Source: Rufibacter hautae
GTDB lineage: Bacteria > Bacteroidota > Bacteroidia > Cytophagales > Hymenobacteraceae
Length of the DNA: 64,000 nucleotides
Direction of reading: 5' to 3'
NCBI RefSeq assembly: GCF_008271695.1
Contig: NZ_VKKY01000002.1
Span: forward strand, 682,001 to 746,000
Part shown: one piece after another, positions 15,361 to 46,315 of the stretch
Position numbering within the stretch: the stretch's first letter is position 1
Layout of the letters: each line of letters opens with the position of its first letter
Made by a program: the position numbers and the translations under genes
Notes under the pieces: generated by a model
Told to the model about the DNA's origin: nothing
Database searches by the model: none
What the model saw: only the letters and a program-made list of their open reading frames with translations

Positions 15361-16776
15361 TCAGCTTGCTACAGGTAGGCTGGCCAGGGTGGAAGTTAAA
15401 GGCGGACTGTTTTTGCCTTTAGCGGCAACTGGCGGAGGTAGTACCTGGTTCAGATCATTGCGCTTGGCCATGTCAATGGGATAATTCTTTCTAACCCTTT
15501 TGTACGCGTAGAAAGAGTTCATGAAGAAGGATAGCAGAAAGGCGCCTAATCGTAAGGTGAACAATCCGCCTAAAATCCTCCTGAAGGAGTAAAGGGGAGA
15601 GAAAGACTTCTTCCACAAGGTCCGGTGGGCCTGGAGCAGTTGGGTCTCGGTGATCTTCTTTGGCTTAAAAGCTACGTTGTAGCCATTGTAGAAATTCCAA
15701 TTTCTTTGGTTTAAGATCCGGCCCTCCTGGTTTAGTTTGGTATAAATGGGCGTTCCCCTGAAAGGCGTCATGATGCTGAGAAAAGGAACATCAATGCCAA
15801 TTTCCATCAGCTGGTCTGCCATGTTCACAATGCTCTGTTCATCATCGTGGTCAAAACCGGCAATGAAGCCCGCCATCACGGCAATCCCCCGCTTTCTGAT
15901 CTCCTGTACCGCCTCTTTGTAGTGGGCAATCTTGTTCTGCTTTTTATTCGCATCTACCAGAGAATCTACCCCGAAGGATTCAATCCCCAGAAACACGCCT
16001 ATACAACCAGAGGCTTTCATGAGATCCAACAGTTCAGGGTCTTTCGCGATGTCCATGCTGGCTTGGGTAAGCCACCACTTTTTAAGGGGAATCATCTGCT
16101 GGAGAAGCTGCCGGATGTAAGGCCGCCGAATGGTAAGGTTATCGTCCCAGAACCAAACCACTTTCCTTTGCCACCAATGCTTGAAATGGTCATAGGAGGC
16201 ATCTCTGATGACATCCTCTACCGGTCGTAACCTGAACCCCGGATTCAAAGAGGGAACGGTGCAAAAGGAACAGGAGAAAGGACAACCCCTGGTGGCTTGG
16301 ATTACCTTTTTAATGAAGAACCTATTGGGCAACAACTCATACCTGGGGGTGGGTAAGCTTACCATGTCGCTGGGCGTGCCTCTGTACACCGTCTGCAACT
16401 GACCAAGCGCCACATCCTGTAAAAGGGTGGGCCATACGTTTTCAGCTTCCCCGATGACAATGGCGTCAAAATAGGTCAAGGCTTCTTCCTGGCAGTAGGT
16501 GACATGAGGCCCTCCGGCCACCACCAGCTTTCCTCTCTTCCTGAACTCCACGGCTAGTTTGTAGGCCGATACGGCAAAACCGTTGAAAAACGAGATGGCA
16601 ATCAGATCAGCATCGGTGTTGAACTCTATTTTGTCTATTTGTTGATGAAACACCCGTACTTCATGCGGAGGAGGGGTGATGGCGGCTAAATGGATGCCCG
16701 TAATGGGCGGAACAAAATCCCGTTCATGCCCAAACTCATACCTCTGGACATAAGCAATGATGAGGTCTATTTTCAT
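15361..16776 (-). CDS. B12-binding-domain radical SAM protein
   Basis: The 471-residue protein has an N-terminal cobalamin-binding-like Rossmann domain (residues about 1-140, with GGPHVTYC and GEAENVWP) and a radical SAM core whose 4Fe-4S cysteines are at 165, 169 and 172 (CPFSCSFC). The C-terminal part with FMNSFYAYKRV is the extension typical of hopanoid C-3 methylase/HpnR-like and related uncharacterised enzymes. The group performs radical methylations or rearrangements on unreactive carbons. No partner biosynthetic genes lie beside it, so the substrate is unknown. The Cys residues and domain order are clear. Confidence 0.87.
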   Translation of the reverse strand: MKIDLIIAYVQRYEFGHERDFVPPITGIHLAAITPPPHEVRVFHQQIDKIEFNTDADLIAISFFNGFAVSAYKLAVEFRKRGKLVVAGGPHVTYCQEEALTYFDAIVIGEAENVWPTLLQDVALGQLQTVYRGTPSDMVSLPTPRYELLPNRFFIKKVIQATRGCPFSCSFCTVPSLNPGFRLRPVEDVIRDASYDHFKHWWQRKVVWFWDDNLTIRRPYIRQLLQQMIPLKKWWLTQASMDIAKDPELLDLMKASGCIGVFLGIESFGVDSLVDANKKQNKIAHYKEAVQEIRKRGIAVMAGFIAGFDHDDEQSIVNMADQLMEIGIDVPFLSIMTPFRGTPIYTKLNQEGRILNQRNWNFYNGYNVAFKPKKITETQLLQAHRTLWKKSFSPLYSFRRILGGLFTLRLGAFLLSFFMNSFYAYKRVRKNYPIDMAKRNDLNQVLPPPVAAKGKNSPPLTSTLASLPVAS

Positions 16777-16993: not shown

Positions 16994-18718
16994 CTATCGG
17001 CTGCTGGCTTGGTCGCCAGACCTGGTGAACCTCATGTTGCGGACCACCGGATTGCTATAGTCCAGAGCCACGACTTTGCCGGCTTTGTCCCGCACAAAGC
17101 GCAGCGTGATACCACCTAACTGGAAGGTATCTTTGCTGACAGGCTTGAATTCAAAACCAGGAGCGGGGGCATCGTTGGCGCGGCCCATCAGGTTGTTGTT
17201 CACGGTGTCCATGTCAAAGAAGGCCCCTATCTCATCGTTCTGGTACCGACCGGAATAAGCCTGGAGATCAGCGGAGGTGGGGGTAAAGGGCTGGGCGCGA
17301 CGGTACTTGGAGGTTTTGCCTTCCATAGATTTCAGCTCAAATTGATCTGGTGAAAGAAAGTGCAACTCAAATTCGTCCTGTGACATGAATTGCACGAAGG
17401 CACCAAACCGGCGGTATCGGTCTTTGCCAACAGGCACCAGGCCAGGGCCATTCGCTATCCTGAATCTGTCACGGTCTACCGCCAGGCGCAGCGGCTCACC
17501 GGTTTTCTCGTTGAAGAACAGACCCGTTTTCCCTTTGACTTCTTCCAAGGCCTCAGCGGTTAGAGCGGGCGGAGTGCTGGCTATTGCTGGCTGGGAGTCT
17601 GCATAGGTGACAAACTGATCCACAATGCGCTCCGCTAAACCTGTGGCAGGCTTGGCATCTGAATTACACAGCACAGCCACCGATACACCCTGCTCAGGAA
17701 AACGTCCCAGCCAGGTATGGTAACCGGCCGCTCCGCCTGAGTGCCACACCTCTTTCACCCCGCGGTACGTCTCCAGGAAAAGACCACGAGCATAGCCCAA
17801 CTTTCTGCCGTTGTTCAGTTTGGCCGGTTCTTGCAGCTTTTCCGTTACAAAAGCACCCAAGCGGTTCGTTGATAAGGCATTGTTCCAGAGAAGGAGATCG
17901 GTGGCCGTGCTGAGGATGGCCCCGCCGCCCCGGTCATTTCCCAGGTACATGTCCAGTTTCCAGCCGTCTTTTGTCTTCTCGTAACCCAAGGCACGGTTCT
18001 TCACGGCGGCCGTCATATCGGTCACATAGGTGGTGGACTTCATTCCCAGGGGCTCAAACAGGCGCTTGCGGGCGAAGTCGGCAAAGGGCATGCCGGTAGT
18101 GCGGGATACGATCTCAACCAGCAACACATAGCCGCTGTTAGAGTAAGACCATTCCTCCCCGGGTTTGAAATTGAGACCTCGCTGACGCAGGATAAGGGTG
18201 ATGGCTTCTGGTTTGCCATTGGCCAGCGGCAACAATCCCGTCCAATCCCGGATGCCGCTGGTATGGGTAAGCAGATGGTCCAGCGTTATTTTCTGCCCGT
18301 AATCAGGCAGCTCAGGAAGGTACTTATGGATGTCTTCGGTAAAAGACAATTTCTTCTCCTCTACCAACAGCAAGGTGGCCGCGGCTATGAACTGCTTCCT
18401 CACGGACCCAATATCGAATACCGAGTTAAGATCCAGGGGAACTTCCCGCTCTAAATCGGCAGAGCCATAGGCGCGGTTTACCACCACTTTACCGTTCTGA
18501 GAGACCGCGCACACGCAACCAGGCGTCTCCTTTGAAGCCCAACTGAATACCTTGTCCACTTCGGCTGTTTTATCCTGCGCAACGGCAGAGTATCCTGTAA
18601 AAAAGAGAGCGAATGCTGGCAGGATAAAAGGACTAAATAGGCCTTTTATCAAGGATTTTGTGTGTTCAATTTTTGCTTTTTGTTTCCCTTTTAACAAAGT
18701 TTTTGTTTCTGGTTTCAT
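16994..18718 (-). CDS. Serine hydrolase, class-C beta-lactamase/esterase family
   Basis: The 574-residue protein has a positively charged leader and a signal peptide ending near AVAQ (residue 48). The active site has SVRK (Ser105, Lys108), YSN (192-194) and a late HSGG in place of KTG, as in EstB/Pab87-like esterases and D-aminopeptidases. A C-terminal region of about 170 residues (from residue 390) forms the lipocalin-like extension often found in these secreted hydrolases. The substrate is likely an ester or D-amino peptide rather than a beta-lactam drug. Its promoter carries one copy of the ACTTTG-N5-CAAAGT palindrome shared with the winged-helix module upstream. Confidence 0.9.
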   Translation of the reverse strand: MKPETKTLLKGKQKAKIEHTKSLIKGLFSPFILPAFALFFTGYSAVAQDKTAEVDKVFSWASKETPGCVCAVSQNGKVVVNRAYGSADLEREVPLDLNSVFDIGSVRKQFIAAATLLLVEEKKLSFTEDIHKYLPELPDYGQKITLDHLLTHTSGIRDWTGLLPLANGKPEAITLILRQRGLNFKPGEEWSYSNSGYVLLVEIVSRTTGMPFADFARKRLFEPLGMKSTTYVTDMTAAVKNRALGYEKTKDGWKLDMYLGNDRGGGAILSTATDLLLWNNALSTNRLGAFVTEKLQEPAKLNNGRKLGYARGLFLETYRGVKEVWHSGGAAGYHTWLGRFPEQGVSVAVLCNSDAKPATGLAERIVDQFVTYADSQPAIASTPPALTAEALEEVKGKTGLFFNEKTGEPLRLAVDRDRFRIANGPGLVPVGKDRYRRFGAFVQFMSQDEFELHFLSPDQFELKSMEGKTSKYRRAQPFTPTSADLQAYSGRYQNDEIGAFFDMDTVNNNLMGRANDAPAPGFEFKPVSKDTFQLGGITLRFVRDKAGKVVALDYSNPVVRNMRFTRSGDQASSR

Positions 18719-18774
18719 AAGCTTAAAATCTAAGTTAAGGTTGAATGAATTAGTAGTTGTTAAATCTTGAAAGT

Positions 18775-18791
18775 GCTTTGTGTTTCAAAGT
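18775..18791 (-). promoter_or_regulatory. Palindromic operator, copy at the serine hydrolase promoter
   Basis: GCTTTG-TGTTT-CAAAGT differs at one position from the perfect palindrome ACTTTG-N5-CAAAGT found at 21835 and 22817, and shares the flanking AAAGT on the left. On the minus strand it overlaps TACACTTTG, a near match to the -7 box, about 60 bases before the serine hydrolase ATG. This placement suits a repressor. Confidence 0.5.
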
Positions 18792-18913
18792 GTATTTTGA
18801 AAAAAAAAGGCAAAAGTACTCCTGTTCAGGAGCTTGTAGAAGCACCTGATATAACATTAGTAATTATGGCAAACTGTATTCTTGACTGTGGGTTTTTAAG
18901 AATTTAAATGGCT

Positions 18914-19630
18914 CTATTTGCCAGATGCATTATTGTAGGTTTCTAGGCACTTGTTAAGCGGTTGTCCTTCTTTGTGGATGCAATCGCAGAAAGTGTAGCA
19001 AGCGGCAGGGTTATCACTTTCATCACATTGGGTTCTACATTCCTTGAGCGTATTGCGAGGTACTAATTCGTTGCCAAAGACCGCAAATAAAATTACCGCA
19101 GTGAAGGCCAAAGCTACCCCCGAAAAGAACTTAAAAGGGAACTGTGGATGAAGCTCGCGCCACTTGGCTCTAAGGCTCTGGCGGGCAGGCCGGTTGAACG
19201 GCAGAATAGATTTCCAGGCGGGATAGTACCAGCAAATGAGGTACAGGTTGGCCAGTACCATGAGAGGCGAAGTAATGCGTGATCCCTCAAAACGAACAGC
19301 CAGGGACAGAATGCATATGTTTAAAATAATGGGAAAGTAGATAAAGGCTCCCAAAATCACCGTACGCGGAATGAGCAATAATACTCCAGCCACTACCTGC
19401 ATCACGCCAATCATGGTGTAGTAATATCCGGTATGGTGCAGAGCCTCCAGATAATTTCCCATCGGGTGGTTCACCGATAGGACTGTGAACCGCTCCCCCA
19501 TAATTTTCATGATACCAGGAGGAATGAATCCTACTGCCAGAATGATTCGGCAAAAAATGGAGAATAACCAAAGCCACCTGTTTTCTGTGGTTTGTCTATG
19601 GAAGTCGTCTAATTTTGAAGATAAGCTCAT
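18914..19630 (-). CDS. DoxX-like membrane protein with a cysteine-rich tail
   Basis: The start chosen is the ATG giving MSLSSKLDDFHRQ; a TTG 66 bases upstream, overlapping the previous gene, is possible. Membrane segments include LWLFSIFCRIILAVGFIPPG, a GVMQVVAGVLLLI segment with the DoxX-like pattern, and two or three more. After a final helix near residue 205 comes a tail with six cysteines (spacing C-x3-C-x8-C-x3-C-x-C-x10-C), probably outside the cytoplasm and either disulfide-bonded or metal-binding. DoxX proteins serve in quinone or redox-linked membrane processes. The role is not known; the Cys tail is unusual. Confidence 0.65.
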   Translation of the reverse strand: MSLSSKLDDFHRQTTENRWLWLFSIFCRIILAVGFIPPGIMKIMGERFTVLSVNHPMGNYLEALHHTGYYYTMIGVMQVVAGVLLLIPRTVILGAFIYFPIILNICILSLAVRFEGSRITSPLMVLANLYLICWYYPAWKSILPFNRPARQSLRAKWRELHPQFPFKFFSGVALAFTAVILFAVFGNELVPRNTLKECRTQCDESDNPAACYTFCDCIHKEGQPLNKCLETYNNASGK

Positions 19631-19682
19631 TTTTTTTCGTATTGTTGCCGGTCTACTATCCTTGATAATTTGGTGGAAGCGC

Positions 19683-19955
19683 TTACAGCTTATCAATCAT
19701 ATCGCCTAAATCACTTACCCCTAAGGTGAACATCATTAAGAAAATGAAAAGAATTACTTTAACTACTATTGGGATAGTGAAATTGAATTTTTGCTTCAGG
19801 TAAGCATTAGTAGGAGGCAAGTAAATGAATGAAAATAGGAAGTAGCCTATTGCCGGAACTGGGTGCACGAACACCAAATTTAATATTCCTATGACTACTA
19901 AAAGCAAGCTAACTGCCCACCCAGTTATTTCTAAATAATTTGTTTTTGCAACCAT
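19683..19955 (-). CDS. Small membrane protein of 90 residues
   Basis: The product has three hydrophobic segments (WAVSLLLVVIGILNLVFV, IGYFLFSFIYLPP, VVKVILFIFLMMFTLGV) and almost no soluble part. A TTG start 9 bases earlier is possible. It lies between the DUF4153 gene and the DoxX-like gene on the same strand and overlaps or abuts the latter, so it is likely co-expressed. No family recognised. Confidence 0.6.
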   Translation of the reverse strand: MVAKTNYLEITGWAVSLLLVVIGILNLVFVHPVPAIGYFLFSFIYLPPTNAYLKQKFNFTIPIVVKVILFIFLMMFTLGVSDLGDMIDKL

Positions 19956-20024
19956 GTTTATCAACCGTTTTTAGCCTGTAAATACATAATCAATACAAAT
20001 TCAGAATGGCTGTTCTAGTCTTAT

Positions 20025-21269
20025 TTATTTAAACCCGAATAGCACAGGGAATAAGAAAACCACGATTGCCGTCCAGATAAAATAAACCGGCAGGTACAAG
20101 ACAATGGCTCTGCCAACCTGGGGAATGTCTGCCTTTTTGGTGATGGTTTTAAAAAGCATCACCGTCACTAGAAGCAGGTGTACCAGCATGAGAACATTGG
20201 CGCCTAGCACCGCCACTCGGTTTGGGGTAATGCCCCACTCTGAGATCCGGAAGGAAATTGCAGAAAGCGCAATACCATTGACCACCACCGTCACAACGGA
20301 CAGTAATAGAAGCACCCAGGTGCCCCAAGCTGATTTTTCCTGGGCTGAGGTCTCTGCCACGGAGAAAAAGATCAAGGCCATGACCCCCACCAGGAGCACG
20401 TTGAACAACATGAGGAATTCTCTGTCATTGTAAGGGTCTTTGCCTGAGTAGATGATGGCACCCAGATAAATGATGAGCATCACCAGAACCAATGGGCTGA
20501 AGATCTTGGCAATCACCGGGGATACTTTGTTCACCAATTGTGGATTGGTTTGGGTAAGATAAGTGGCCAGGATAGGCACTGCCGCCGCCCCGAATACTAC
20601 CACGTACTGGGTGTAAAACTGCTCTATTTTCAACCCGATCAGCTCGAATAAGCCCAGCGTGATGCCGGTCATCATTACCCCCGCAATCACGAGCATCGCG
20701 GACATGACCGCCAGGTCACCGTTGAACCGAAGAAAGTCGAGCCTTTTCCGGTAATCTTTTAGGTCTTGGCCGGTAAAGGATACTCCAAGCATCACCCACA
20801 AGAGCAGGGGCAAATGGATGCAAGCCAGAATAAGGGTGTCGCTGGTGGGGCTGTTTGGCAGAGAATTGATGTACAACAAACAAACGACCATCACGCCAAA
20901 GACAAAGGCGATTTTGCTTCCGGCTAGTTTATTCCTCCAGGCAAAGTAGGCTGCCAGAAATGGAAACACCAGAAACCCGATGTTGCGGGGGTAAAAGAAC
21001 TCTTCATTGAGGCCGAAGATGCTGGGTGTTTTGGCAAGGATGCCGGCCAGAAGGGAGGCGAGCACCACAAACAGAAACTCCTTTCTGGATCCCCAGGAAA
21101 TGGCATCCGATTCATAGTGCAACCGTTCCTGCCAGAACTCGGCCAGAACATTGCCGCTGAGTTGGGGGTAGAGCCCGCTGAACTCCTGCTTGAACCCGGC
21201 TTTGTTAGTCCGGTACAGCTTCTCCAGGTGCCTTGGGTCATTTAGGTGGGTAAGAATTTCCTCTTTCAT
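20025..21269 (-). CDS. DUF4153 multi-pass membrane protein
   Basis: The 414-residue protein has a soluble N-terminal region (residues 1-65) and about eleven membrane segments. The patterns SAMLVIAGVMMTGITLGLFE, LIIYLGAIIYSGKDPYNDRE and ISEWGITPNRVAVLGANVLM match DUF4153, a family of unknown function frequent in Bacteroidota. It belongs to the run of membrane-protein genes that follows the winged-helix regulator. Confidence 0.8.
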   Translation of the reverse strand: MKEEILTHLNDPRHLEKLYRTNKAGFKQEFSGLYPQLSGNVLAEFWQERLHYESDAISWGSRKEFLFVVLASLLAGILAKTPSIFGLNEEFFYPRNIGFLVFPFLAAYFAWRNKLAGSKIAFVFGVMVVCLLYINSLPNSPTSDTLILACIHLPLLLWVMLGVSFTGQDLKDYRKRLDFLRFNGDLAVMSAMLVIAGVMMTGITLGLFELIGLKIEQFYTQYVVVFGAAAVPILATYLTQTNPQLVNKVSPVIAKIFSPLVLVMLIIYLGAIIYSGKDPYNDREFLMLFNVLLVGVMALIFFSVAETSAQEKSAWGTWVLLLLSVVTVVVNGIALSAISFRISEWGITPNRVAVLGANVLMLVHLLLVTVMLFKTITKKADIPQVGRAIVLYLPVYFIWTAIVVFLFPVLFGFK

Positions 21270-21456
21270 GGGTGTAGGCTTTTATTCTGTTTGAATCCTT
21301 TATTATCTAAATATAAATTGCTGTTTGTCCACTGTAGGTCTTATCGCCTTTTCTGCCTGTTTTCCTAATAACAGGGCTAAAACAAAGAGCTTAGTACATG
21401 GGCACGTACTTGCGCTCCGCAACATGATTGACCTTGTAGCCAGAAATCAGCGGATA
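21270..21456. other. Short intergenic gap
   Basis: Nothing convincing was seen. It lies between two membrane-protein genes on the same strand. Confidence 0.3.
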
Positions 21457-21789
21457 TTAGTCCCACATGGTTCCGTCCAGGCCAACCACGACGCCCATCC
21501 ATACGCCAATCAGGTAGACTACTATGCTCAAGAGTATGGTCAAGGCTTTGTTGAAGCCTCGGGCGCTTTGGTAAGCCATGAAAGCGTAGAAGGCGCCACC
21601 TATGGCCCCTGCCAACGGAGTAATGAGGAGCGGCCTGATTCTCCAGTACTCTCCCCAGGCGGGATCTGTGTAATCCACCCCGAAAACAAAAAAGGAGATA
21701 ACCAGGAAGGCAATGGCCGCCCCAATGAGGACAGGCTTTATGAAGGATACTTGAGGATTTGGCTGGGTTACATTGTTCTGAGTTGTCAT
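21457..21789 (-). CDS. Small membrane protein (often annotated as KefB-like)
   Basis: The 110-residue product starts at MTTQNN, with three membrane segments: VLIGAAIAFLVISFFVFGV, a GAIGGAFYAFMAY segment, and LTILLSIVVYLIGVWMG ending VVGLDGTMWD. Relatives in Bacteroidota are often labelled potassium transporter KefB without evidence; the protein is far too short for that family. A perfect copy of the winged-helix-linked palindrome lies 46-62 bases before the ATG. Confidence 0.7.
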   Translation of the reverse strand: MTTQNNVTQPNPQVSFIKPVLIGAAIAFLVISFFVFGVDYTDPAWGEYWRIRPLLITPLAGAIGGAFYAFMAYQSARGFNKALTILLSIVVYLIGVWMGVVVGLDGTMWD

Positions 21790-21834
21790 AAAAAAGTGAA
21801 TAAGGTTGAAAGTAGTTTTGATGATTATTAAAGT

Positions 21835-21851
21835 ACTTTGGATTGCAAAGT
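21835..21851 (-). promoter_or_regulatory. Palindromic operator, perfect copy at the KefB-like gene
   Basis: ACTTTG-GATTG-CAAAGT is a perfect inverted repeat with the shared left flank AAAGT. On the minus strand it overlaps TTACTTTG, a near match to the -7 box. It lies only 18 bases past the stop codon of the winged-helix gene, so the downstream gene may have its own promoter. Confidence 0.6.
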
Positions 21852-21868
21852 AAGTGGGCAAAAAAAAT

Positions 21869-22177
21869 TTAACTTCCTTGTCGGTTGCTCAAAATAAGCT
21901 TCTCCAATGCGTCCAGGTGGCTTTTAAAGGCTTGTCTTCCTGCATCAGTGGCATGGTAAGTGGTTTGCGGCTTGCGGCCCACAAACTGCTTTTCAACCCG
22001 AAGGTACTCGGCCTCTTCCAAGGCTCGCAAGTGGCTGGCCAGGTTACCGTCTGTTAGTTGGAGGGTGTCCTTCAAAGTGCTGAAATCCACTTTGTCCTCC
22101 ACCATCAGCACTGACATAATGCCCAGCCGCGCCTTGCTTTCAAAGGCTTTGTTTATGTTTTCTAAATAGTTTTTCAC
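21869..22177 (-). CDS. Winged-helix transcriptional regulator (HTH_34/ArsR-like)
   Basis: The 102-residue protein most likely starts at GTG (VKNYLENINKAFESKARLG), seven bases after the stop of the membrane-protein gene upstream, which suggests translational coupling. FSTLKDTLQLTDGNLASHLRALEEAEYL is the helix-turn-helix and GRKPQTTYHATDAGRQAF the wing and last helix of the one-domain winged-helix family. Such regulators often pair with a membrane protein and act as repressors. The palindrome found at three nearby promoters is the best candidate for its target site. This is inference from proximity. Confidence 0.85.
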   Translation of the reverse strand: MKNYLENINKAFESKARLGIMSVLMVEDKVDFSTLKDTLQLTDGNLASHLRALEEAEYLRVEKQFVGRKPQTTYHATDAGRQAFKSHLDALEKLILSNRQGS

Positions 22178-22184
22178 TGGTCTG

Positions 22185-22808
22185 CTAGCGTTCGTACTTA
22201 AAATACACCAGCGCGCCATACACAATGTGCAGCATGCCAAATCCTATGGTCCAGGAAAGCAGGCCATAACTCACAAAAAAGCTGGCTAACAAGCCAAGCA
22301 CAATCTCAAAGATACCCAGGTACCGGATGTCACTGATAGTATACTTGCTTCCGTTCAACAGAGCCAGTCCGTAGAACACCAACATGGAAGGAGCTACCAG
22401 GTACAAGAGGTTGTGGTAAATAAGGATGGCGCAAAAGGTCCCCCCGGCGGCTAAAGGAATGGCCAGGTTCACCGCCAACCTTTTTGATTGGCTGTCCCAG
22501 ATACGGTGGTTCTTTTTTCGCGCGTTCCTGACGGTAAAATAAGCAGCAGCACAGATTCCAAGCAGAAGTACGGTGGCCGCTACTCCTAACAAGAAAAAGA
22601 TATCCTGGGTTGTAAGGTTGCTGCCTAAGTCATTATAGTAATTGATGTTGTTTTCGCTGAAATACCATTTCACCACAGCCGCACCCACCAGAGCCAAAAG
22701 GCCCGGGAAAACACCAGACAATCCGCTCAGCGAGATAAAGCGGGAAGAACGATCCATGATGTTCCGGATCTCGTGCAGGGTTTCTAGTTGCTCTTGCTGC
22801 TGGTTCAT
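22185..22808 (-). CDS. Multi-pass membrane protein paired with the winged-helix regulator
   Basis: The 207-residue protein has a soluble N-terminus rich in Gln/Glu (MNQQQEQLETLHEIRNIMDR) and six hydrophobic segments, among them GVFPGLLALVGAAVVKW, IFFLLGVAATVLLLGICAAA and LAIPLAAGGTFCAILIY. It shows no catalytic motif. Its gene is the first of the module and has a complete promoter (TTG-N19-TAACTTTG) in which the palindromic operator overlaps the -7 box, 9-25 bases before the ATG. Membrane proteins paired with this type of regulator are common in Bacteroidota; the biochemical role is not known. Confidence 0.75.
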   Translation of the reverse strand: MNQQQEQLETLHEIRNIMDRSSRFISLSGLSGVFPGLLALVGAAVVKWYFSENNINYYNDLGSNLTTQDIFFLLGVAATVLLLGICAAAYFTVRNARKKNHRIWDSQSKRLAVNLAIPLAAGGTFCAILIYHNLLYLVAPSMLVFYGLALLNGSKYTISDIRYLGIFEIVLGLLASFFVSYGLLSWTIGFGMLHIVYGALVYFKYER

Positions 22809-22816
22809 GTTAAAGT

Positions 22817-22833
22817 ACTTTGCGATTCAAAGT
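22817..22833 (-). promoter_or_regulatory. Palindromic operator, perfect copy at the module's first gene
   Basis: ACTTTG-CGATT-CAAAGT is a perfect inverted repeat with left flank AAAGT. It overlaps the -7 box on the minus strand (TAACTTTG at 22828-22835). A regulator bound here would block RNA polymerase. Confidence 0.65.
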
Positions 22834-22857
22834 TAATTGAAAATTCTTTCTACGCAA
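22828..22857 (-). promoter_or_regulatory. Promoter of the membrane protein / winged-helix operon
   Basis: On the minus strand TTG (22855-22857) and TAACTTTG (22828-22835) are separated by exactly 19 bases, a full match to the Bacteroidota consensus. Transcription would start about 12-15 bases before the ATG at 22808. Confidence 0.65.
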
Positions 22858-45523: not shown

Positions 45524-46315
45524 CTATTTAAAAGGCACTGACGCCTTGTTAACCTTAACTGAACTTTGTTTTGCCAGGCTGTCTACTACTTTGGCCTTTA
45601 AAGTAAGTGTGGTGGAAGAGACTGTGATGTCATTTGAAACCAGCGTTACTGCCTCAATTCTGTCCTGTAACACCTGAGGGCTGTAGGTAAGTTCCAACTT
45701 TGCAGATTGTCCTGCTTTTACTACCGATGGGCTCATCTTGAAGGCCACACAGTTGCAGGCAGTCTGGATTCCGGTCACATTCAGGTCTGTTTTGCCGGTG
45801 TTTTTGAGGGTAAACTTAGCGGTGGCTTTCTGGCCTTTCTCCAATTTTCCGAAGTCAAAGGTGGTGCTGGCCACATCTATCTTCGGGGATTTGGCAACTT
45901 CCTCCGCAGAGTGGGCAGAAGGAGCAGGGGCCGCATCTTTAGGAACTACAGTTCCTTTGATGAACAGAGACTGGGTCTCAGGTTTACCGTTAGAAGTGAT
46001 GGTCAACGTTTTGCTGAAAGCTCCTGGGCGGCCAGCGCTGTTATAACCCGCTTTCACTACGCCGGTCTTGCCTGGTAAAATTGCCTCTTTAGGCCATTCT
46101 GGCGTGGTGCAGCCGCAGGAAGCCTGCACGTGCGAAATTACTACCGGCTGGTTTCCAGTGTTCTTGAATTTAAACTCGTAAACAGCTTGTACGCCTTCGC
46201 TCACATTGCCAAATTCATGGGTGTCTTTTTCGAAGGTCAGAATCCCCTGGGCCGAAACCATTCCTTGGGTAAGTACCATCAGGGCTAAAGTGAGCAATAG
46301 ATAGATTTTTTTCAT
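45524..46315 (-). CDS. DUF1573 secreted protein, two-domain
   Basis: The 263-residue protein has a signal peptide (to about residue 22) and two DUF1573 immunoglobulin-like domains. The first is residues 25-125 (FEKDTHEFGNVSEGVQAVYE, SCGCTTPEWPK), the second residues 148-245 (STTFDFGKLEKGQKATAKFT, TACNCVAF). The Cys-x-Cys in each is conserved. The family is very common in Bacteroidota, probably as periplasmic or surface binding units, but function is unproven. A second, one-domain member is encoded at 63504. Confidence 0.9.
   Translation of the reverse strand: MKKIYLLLTLALMVLTQGMVSAQGILTFEKDTHEFGNVSEGVQAVYEFKFKNTGNQPVVISHVQASCGCTTPEWPKEAILPGKTGVVKAGYNSAGRPGAFSKTLTITSNGKPETQSLFIKGTVVPKDAAPAPSAHSAEEVAKSPKIDVASTTFDFGKLEKGQKATAKFTLKNTGKTDLNVTGIQTACNCVAFKMSPSVVKAGQSAKLELTYSPQVLQDRIEAVTLVSNDITVSSTTLTLKAKVVDSLAKQSSVKVNKASVPFK

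Follow-up and report, generated by a model that had tools for sequence, protein, structure and literature searches.

A palindromic operator apparently marks genes under a membrane-protein-paired HTH_34 regulator in Rufibacter hautae and across much of Bacteroidota

In Bacillus subtilis the autorepressor SdpR is sequestered at the membrane, and its repression so relieved, by SdpI, a polytopic protein of the same operon (PMC1626106). A similar adjacency of regulator and membrane protein was found in the DNA of Rufibacter hautae analysed here (64,000 nucleotides, positions 682,001 to 746,000 of contig NZ_VKKY01000002.1, hereafter the window), in which a winged-helix regulator of the HTH_34 family is encoded directly behind a membrane partner (MP) and one palindromic operator precedes this operon as well as two further units, at sites named P1, P2 and P3 (Table 1). 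The operator is asymmetric on the coding strand, ACTTTG-N5-CAAAGTACTTT, and has the same form at all three window sites, at P3 with one mismatch. The initial annotation of this DNA had placed the palindrome in perfect form at 21835-21851 and 22817-22833 and with one mismatch at 18775-18791, all with a left flank AAAGT, and this was confirmed in the sequence, the flank being ACTTT of the coding strand. As in SdpR/SdpI, regulator and membrane protein are adjacent and share an operator at their own promoter, in all 80 of the protein-selected loci described below. The window regulator, however, fails the SdpR model NF033789 with 15.1 bits against 100, and for MP neither Pfam nor NCBIfam yields an SdpI model up to E=1, so that the system can be SdpR/SdpI-like in its working at most. 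The gene order also differs, being sdpRI there and MP-HTH here, and many dispersed targets here share the conserved operator, with no toxin ligand seen.

The regulator matches HTH_34 (PF13601) with 108.6 bits against a gathering cut-off of 27, and it matches the structure 1ub9 (E=6.6e-10), that of PH1061, with which it has this DNA-binding domain family in common. It falls short of the ArsR/SmtB metalloregulator model NF033788 (29.5 bits against a cut-off of 55) and of the PadR family (21.3 bits against a Pfam gathering score of 27). Its start codon is probably GTG, judging from the reading frame and from relatives. CreD, an inner-membrane protein, is in enterobacteria under the CreBC two-component system. 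CreD is a target in both systems, but several Bacteroidales and Chitinophagaceae loci have a gene of the CreD cluster, named on the representative L149, behind the present operator and HTH_34. Taken as a whole, and with a probability of roughly 0.75, the HTH_34 protein is read here as an autorepressor that would sit over promoter and start site, be relieved by MP and control an envelope regulon of Bacteroidota.

The host genome (5.84 Mb) was scanned for the operator with the reversed motif as control. Perfect ACTTTG-N5-CAAAGT occurs in four places and the reversed control in none. Two of the four are P1 and P2 and the other two flank the sole other HTH_34 gene (counted at E <= 1e-5); with all perfect sites at two HTH_34 genes, the motif is not frequent at unrelated promoters. 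When up to two mismatches were allowed, the extended 22-mer ACTTTGN5CAAAGTACTTT was found in six places against one in the control, namely the four perfect sites, P3, which is the only one-mismatch 22-mer in the 5.84 Mb, and one place elsewhere with two mismatches. The palindromes are genuine, and chance falls far short of explaining them. A second copy of the system (L005:6575-11460; G000:C2:1614574 onward) consists of an MP paralogue and HTH_34 followed by VIT-type and exosortase-like proteins, the clusters of which were named through relatives as XrtN-system VIT protein and exosortase N; an operator of this copy overlaps the stop of its regulator. The spacer of P3 is identical to the spacer of the second-copy sites. 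The small local regulon that had been supposed does not hold, as the same site stands at this second, exosortase N-type locus and at dispersed targets elsewhere; the earlier observation was correct, and understated.

Conservation of the operator beside the regulator was followed in loci obtained by scanning named genomes with the regulator protein alone, no motif being used, of which the best 80 of 91 were taken. They span Rufibacter, Pontibacter and Adhaeribacter at one end and Chitinophagaceae, Flavobacteriia, Butyricimonas, Tannerellaceae and Paludibacteraceae at the other, gut Bacteroidales being included. All 80 have at least one site with no more than one mismatch, and sites both upstream and downstream are present in 80/80 at up to two mismatches and in 78/80 at up to one. 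The 173 sites with zero or one mismatch all share the regulator's strand. That the palindrome belongs with a winged-helix regulator paired with a membrane protein, as first proposed, and that it is kept beside orthologous regulators, is borne out by these loci. At the level of the order, the exact 22-mer occurs in 58 of 148 genomes and the control in none, and HTH_34 is present in 56 of the 58 site-bearing genomes against 29 of the 90 others (p=1.4e-16, indicative only, p-values being overstated for related genomes that are not independent). Of the 144 order-level sites, 84 lie within 5 kb of HTH_34, in every case on the same strand. Two of the 58 genomes have no HTH_34 match, and one of them (G017) carries an MP fragment beside its site (L043). 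At the level of the phylum (198 genomes, site exact but for a free base in its last arm), the site is found in 47 genomes, with HTH_34 in 47/47 against 72 of the 151 others. Of the 89 sites there, 63 are no more than 5 kb away from HTH_34, all on its strand, and the reversed control gave one match in the 198 genomes. Across much of Bacteroidota, the operator thus appears to mark the genes controlled by this HTH_34 protein.

Site and MP follow one class of recognition helix. Among the loci of two sets not chosen by motif, after identical HTH copies and loci with less than 760 or less than 420 bases of flank had been dropped, regulators with the helix TDGNLA[ST]H have a site in 92/92 and MP directly upstream in 90/92, MP being further up in the remaining two, and those with TAGNLSVQ have a site in 0/9 and MP in 0/9. 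In an extra sample of 13 distinct loci picked for absence of the exact site, eight carry TDGNLA[ST]H, of which three have a site at up to two mismatches, two have MP only and three have neither; the five with other helices have neither site nor MP. Site, MP and TDGNLA[ST]H helix co-segregate. By profile, MP was found in 65 of the 198 phylum genomes, that is in 42 of the 47 with a site against 23 of the 151 others. The N-terminal helix of MP, EIRxxMERSSRFISLSGLSG, is among its best-conserved parts in the family alignment and is followed by several hydrophobic segments in the hydropathy profile; hydropathy and charge would place the helix in the cytoplasm, provided that the strongly basic loop at about residues 91-110 lies there too.

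The first alternative is that MP is a regulated target only, for example an envelope protein, and no partner of the repressor. It draws on the other site-controlled genes, which likewise encode small hydrophobic proteins, and it is a possible though clearly the less probable view, because MP adjoins HTH_34 directly upstream in 80/80 protein-selected loci while the targets vary, because HTH_34 classes without MP have no site, and because a protein substituting for MP in L225 aligns with it at the N-terminal helix only, and weakly (E=4.5e-4, probability 33%). The substitute in L224 aligns more weakly still (E=0.009, probability 4%). Fusions of MP and HTH were considered as proof of contact and rejected, as the long frames in L234-L237 fuse a sensor-like N-terminus and not MP. 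In these four genomes, read from family f35, a frame of 325-345 amino acids ends in HTH_34 and has an N-terminus that is PAS-like by eye; the best site near the L235 fusion has two mismatches and lies at the P2 place, at +339, and the best sites near the other three have 3, 5 and 6 mismatches. In L241 a palindrome TGTTTGCAGTGCAAACA lies about 786 bases before a divergent HTH_34 (helix TRGNLSSH). Other HTH_34 members may read TTTG-N5-CAAA-like sites.

The mode of action was approached through the promoters. The primary-sigma promoter of Bacteroidota has been described as TTTG / TAnnTTTG (PMC7366714). P1 promoters agree with it, their operator overlying the -7 box, whereas the linked targets (P2, P3) carry a T-tract and not a -33 box. 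At P1, the -7 box TAACTTTG at 22828-22835 and the -33 TTG at 22855-22857 form the consensus TTG-N19/20-TAnnTTTG exactly (22828-22857), and the left arm of the operator is the -7 box. The initial annotation had seen TTG-N19-TAACTTTG here, rightly, and had put all three palindromes at -7 boxes, which holds in part only: the 22817 site carries TAACTTTG, the 21835 site TTACTTTG with one mismatch to TAnnTTTG, and the 18775 site ACACTTTG with neither T nor A in position; P2 and P3 both depart from the full consensus. P1-type sites have TTG at -25/-24 in 84/104 and TA at -2/-1 in 69/104, and the median distance from site start to start codon is 25 bases. Since the P1 promoters fit TTTG/TAnnTTTG with the left arm as -7 box, occlusion would be the natural mode, and repression by promoter occlusion would likewise be the natural reading of the repressor first proposed.

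Linked target sites have TTG at -25/-24 in 2/91 and a run of at least six T in 86/91, and the runs of at least five T share a common end point before the operator in 77/88. In the distant loci L130-L157, the T-run ends at this place for 19 of 27 sites. This tract of seven to nine T keeps a constant register, 8 bases ahead of the operators of linked targets, and is found from Cytophagales to Bacteroidales (L078-L157) and is nearly absent at P1. Unlinked targets, for which 36 of 43 read sites were counted, have TTG in 17/36 and a T-run in 4/36. A simple terminator of the upstream gene does not cleanly explain the tract, which is absent in 22 of 24 P1 sites with an upstream gene on the same strand, some neighbours having been misassigned by the gene caller. 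The regulator could also bind the same site mainly as an activator, or as a dual switch, at the T-tract promoters P2 and P3 and as a repressor at P1. Promoters with TTG in 2/91 and a T-run of fixed register in 86/91 may indeed be weak and need help. An operator whose register covers the -7 and start region is in a poor position for activation, however, and roughly half the unlinked targets (TTG 17/36), as well as P1, resemble normal occluded promoters, so that activation is unlikely.

The palindrome may also be considered as part of the promoters of an alternative sigma factor, or as the site of another regulator, with HTH_34 a merely frequent neighbour. Fixed orientation at the -7 region would suit such an element, but the strong dyad symmetry, the co-segregation with one recognition-helix class and the occurrence of sites across the 198 phylum genomes only where HTH_34 exists make it very improbable. 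Chance or a promoter-composition artefact, with which the one-mismatch 17-mers of the host genome (20 places, four of them perfect, vs 14 in the control, about chance level) would agree, is refuted for the extended site by the perfect and extended counts against control (4 vs 0 perfect sites in the host genome; 58 of 148 order genomes vs none) and can be dismissed. In the window, ACTTTGN5CAAAGT with up to two mismatches matches seven times against 4.56 expected, and loose palindrome matches are therefore uninformative. A one-mismatch palindrome without the extended arm, ACTTTGGCCTTTAAAGT at 45588-45604, was set aside as a regulon member because one-mismatch 17-mers are near chance level genome-wide.

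In the autorepressor reading, a dimer of HTH_34 would bind ACTTTG-N5-CAAAGTACTTT, and at P1 the right arms would cover the start-site region and the left arm the -7 box, so that the bound regulator would block RNA polymerase. The protein would in this way act as autorepressor of the MP-HTH operon and also repress the P2 and P3 units as well as the dispersed targets. MP, made together with it, would be a sensor or anti-repressor whose N-terminal cytoplasmic helix would hold or free the regulator as the state of the envelope dictates, and with autorepression the amounts of the two proteins would stay balanced. The operator, its register at P1, its tie to the regulator class and MP and its repeated occurrence at genes of the same families are read directly from the DNA. 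From these we infer binding, repression rather than activation, and the action of MP. The link between regulator, operator and membrane partner is very likely, and action by repression is likely.

Several observations weigh against this reading. In the phylum set, 72 genomes have HTH_34 without the exact site, and five of the eight TDGNLA[ST]H loci in the extra sample lack a site even at up to two mismatches, two of the five having MP. P2 and P3 have the T-tract in place of a standard -33 box, so that occlusion is less clear there. MP lies 0.5-1 kb further up and not directly upstream of HTH_34 in L060 and L061, and its profile finds none in 5 of the 47 site genomes; L226 has site and regulator, and L227 a site away from the regulator, both with no MP by profile. 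In two others of the five, L224 and L225, different proteins (203 and 199 amino acids) stand at the place of MP, with the same operator and an HTH_34 of the TDGNLSTH/TDGNLSVH type.

Targets were counted over 294 distinct sites with at most one mismatch, from which identical 80-base contexts had been removed; 279 have a downstream gene, and this set includes motif-selected loci and takes each cluster name from one representative. The commonest clusters among the first genes are those of MP (104), the 111-amino-acid protein (47), CreD (23), the 414-amino-acid protein (18), DUF4153 (16), XrtN VIT protein (11), a 96-amino-acid protein (8), radical SAM (7), DUF1361 (6), serine hydrolase (4) and a 250-amino-acid protein without Pfam match (4). 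A target family of 474 amino acids is DUF4153 by Pfam, and exosortase N is among the genes preceded by sites. Sites far from HTH_34 number 60 at the order level; 43 were read, in 40 loci, of which 12 have a window family behind the site (the 414- or 111-amino-acid protein, DoxX-like, hydrolase or radical SAM). The 414-amino-acid family has its own sites at unlinked loci, the DoxX-like family has its own in L167 and L183, and the radical SAM family in L165 and L096; in L129 the radical SAM gene follows the hydrolase. The gene order of the window is repeated in L088, with relatives of 110, 420, 95 and 250 amino acids behind P2 and then a site and the hydrolase, and a counterpart of P3 directly precedes the hydrolase orthologue (72-89% identity) in L078, L088, L094, L104 and L129. 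Judged by family or by eye, many of the targets are membrane proteins, and on this account the regulon would be an envelope-maintenance set of Bacteroidota.

The remaining features of the window are collected in Table 1. The 414-amino-acid gene is the second behind the P2 site, after that of the 111-amino-acid membrane protein; it had been called KefB-like, wrongly, as neither Pfam nor NCBIfam shows a Kef model among its matches up to E=1. The radical SAM gene lies 217 bases after the hydrolase and possibly belongs to the P3 unit. A hairpin CTCCTG-TT-CAGGAG at 18819-18832, between the DoxX-like gene and P3, is followed by T-rich sequence on the minus strand and is a possible terminator of the P2 unit.

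Table 1. Operators, T-tracts and genes of the regulator locus, in positions of the window.
Feature	Position	Strand	Basis or remark
P1 operator, ACTTTGAATCGCAAAGTACTTT	22812..22833	-	before the MP gene
P2 operator, ACTTTGCAATCCAAAGTACTTT	21830..21851	-	before the unit of the 111-amino-acid membrane protein
P3 operator, ACTTTGAAACACAAAGCACTTT	18770..18791	-	before the serine hydrolase; one mismatch
T8 tract of P2 (A8 on the plus strand)	21860..21867	-	8 bases before the operator; fixed register in relatives
T9 tract of P3	18800..18808	-	register as at P2; sequence
Membrane partner (MP), 207 amino acids	22188..22808	-	open reading frame (ORF); family alignment; hydropathy; adjoins HTH_34 upstream in 80/80 protein-selected loci
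Winged-helix regulator HTH_34, about 102 amino acids	21869..~22177	-	PF13601 match; 1ub9 (PH1061) match
Hydrophobic protein, 111 amino acids, first gene of the P2 unit	21457..21790	-	ORF; membrane protein by eye
414-amino-acid protein	20025..21269	-	sub-threshold DUF4153 match (E=0.013); membrane protein by eye; unlinked relatives with own sites
Hydrophobic protein, 90 amino acids	19683..19955	-	ORF; membrane protein by eye; same family in syntenic L088
DoxX-like protein	18914..19630	-	sub-threshold match (E=0.013)
Serine hydrolase PF00144, P3 target	16994..18718	-	Pfam; probable signal peptide by eye
B12-binding radical SAM protein	15361..16776	-	ORF; name taken from a relative in L165

A wider and much more tentative view is that of an envelope-stress switch in a large part of Bacteroidota, in which a membrane sensor would capture the winged-helix repressor made together with it and so control CreD, DUF4153-type proteins and exosortase N, with the bound operator acting in addition as a roadblock at targets close behind another gene. 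There, a polymerase coming from upstream would halt, its active site over the T-tract that precedes the operator by 8 bases, and would then release, so that a single operator would prevent initiation as well as read-through. Among the matches listed for the open-access literature, with subscription journals and RegPrecise outside the scope, no description of the motif or of an HTH_34 regulon was found. Envelope proteins of unknown role, namely CreD of Bacteroidota, DUF4153, DUF1361, exosortase N and its VIT-domain partner and several orphan small hydrophobic proteins, would on this reading gain a regulator with its operator and a list of targets. These proteins are predicted to act jointly, and a single protein with a single DNA fragment would be enough to test the prediction. 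If MP is truly the partner of the regulator, the system would represent a repressor paired with a membrane protein and with no family relationship to the pair of Bacillus.

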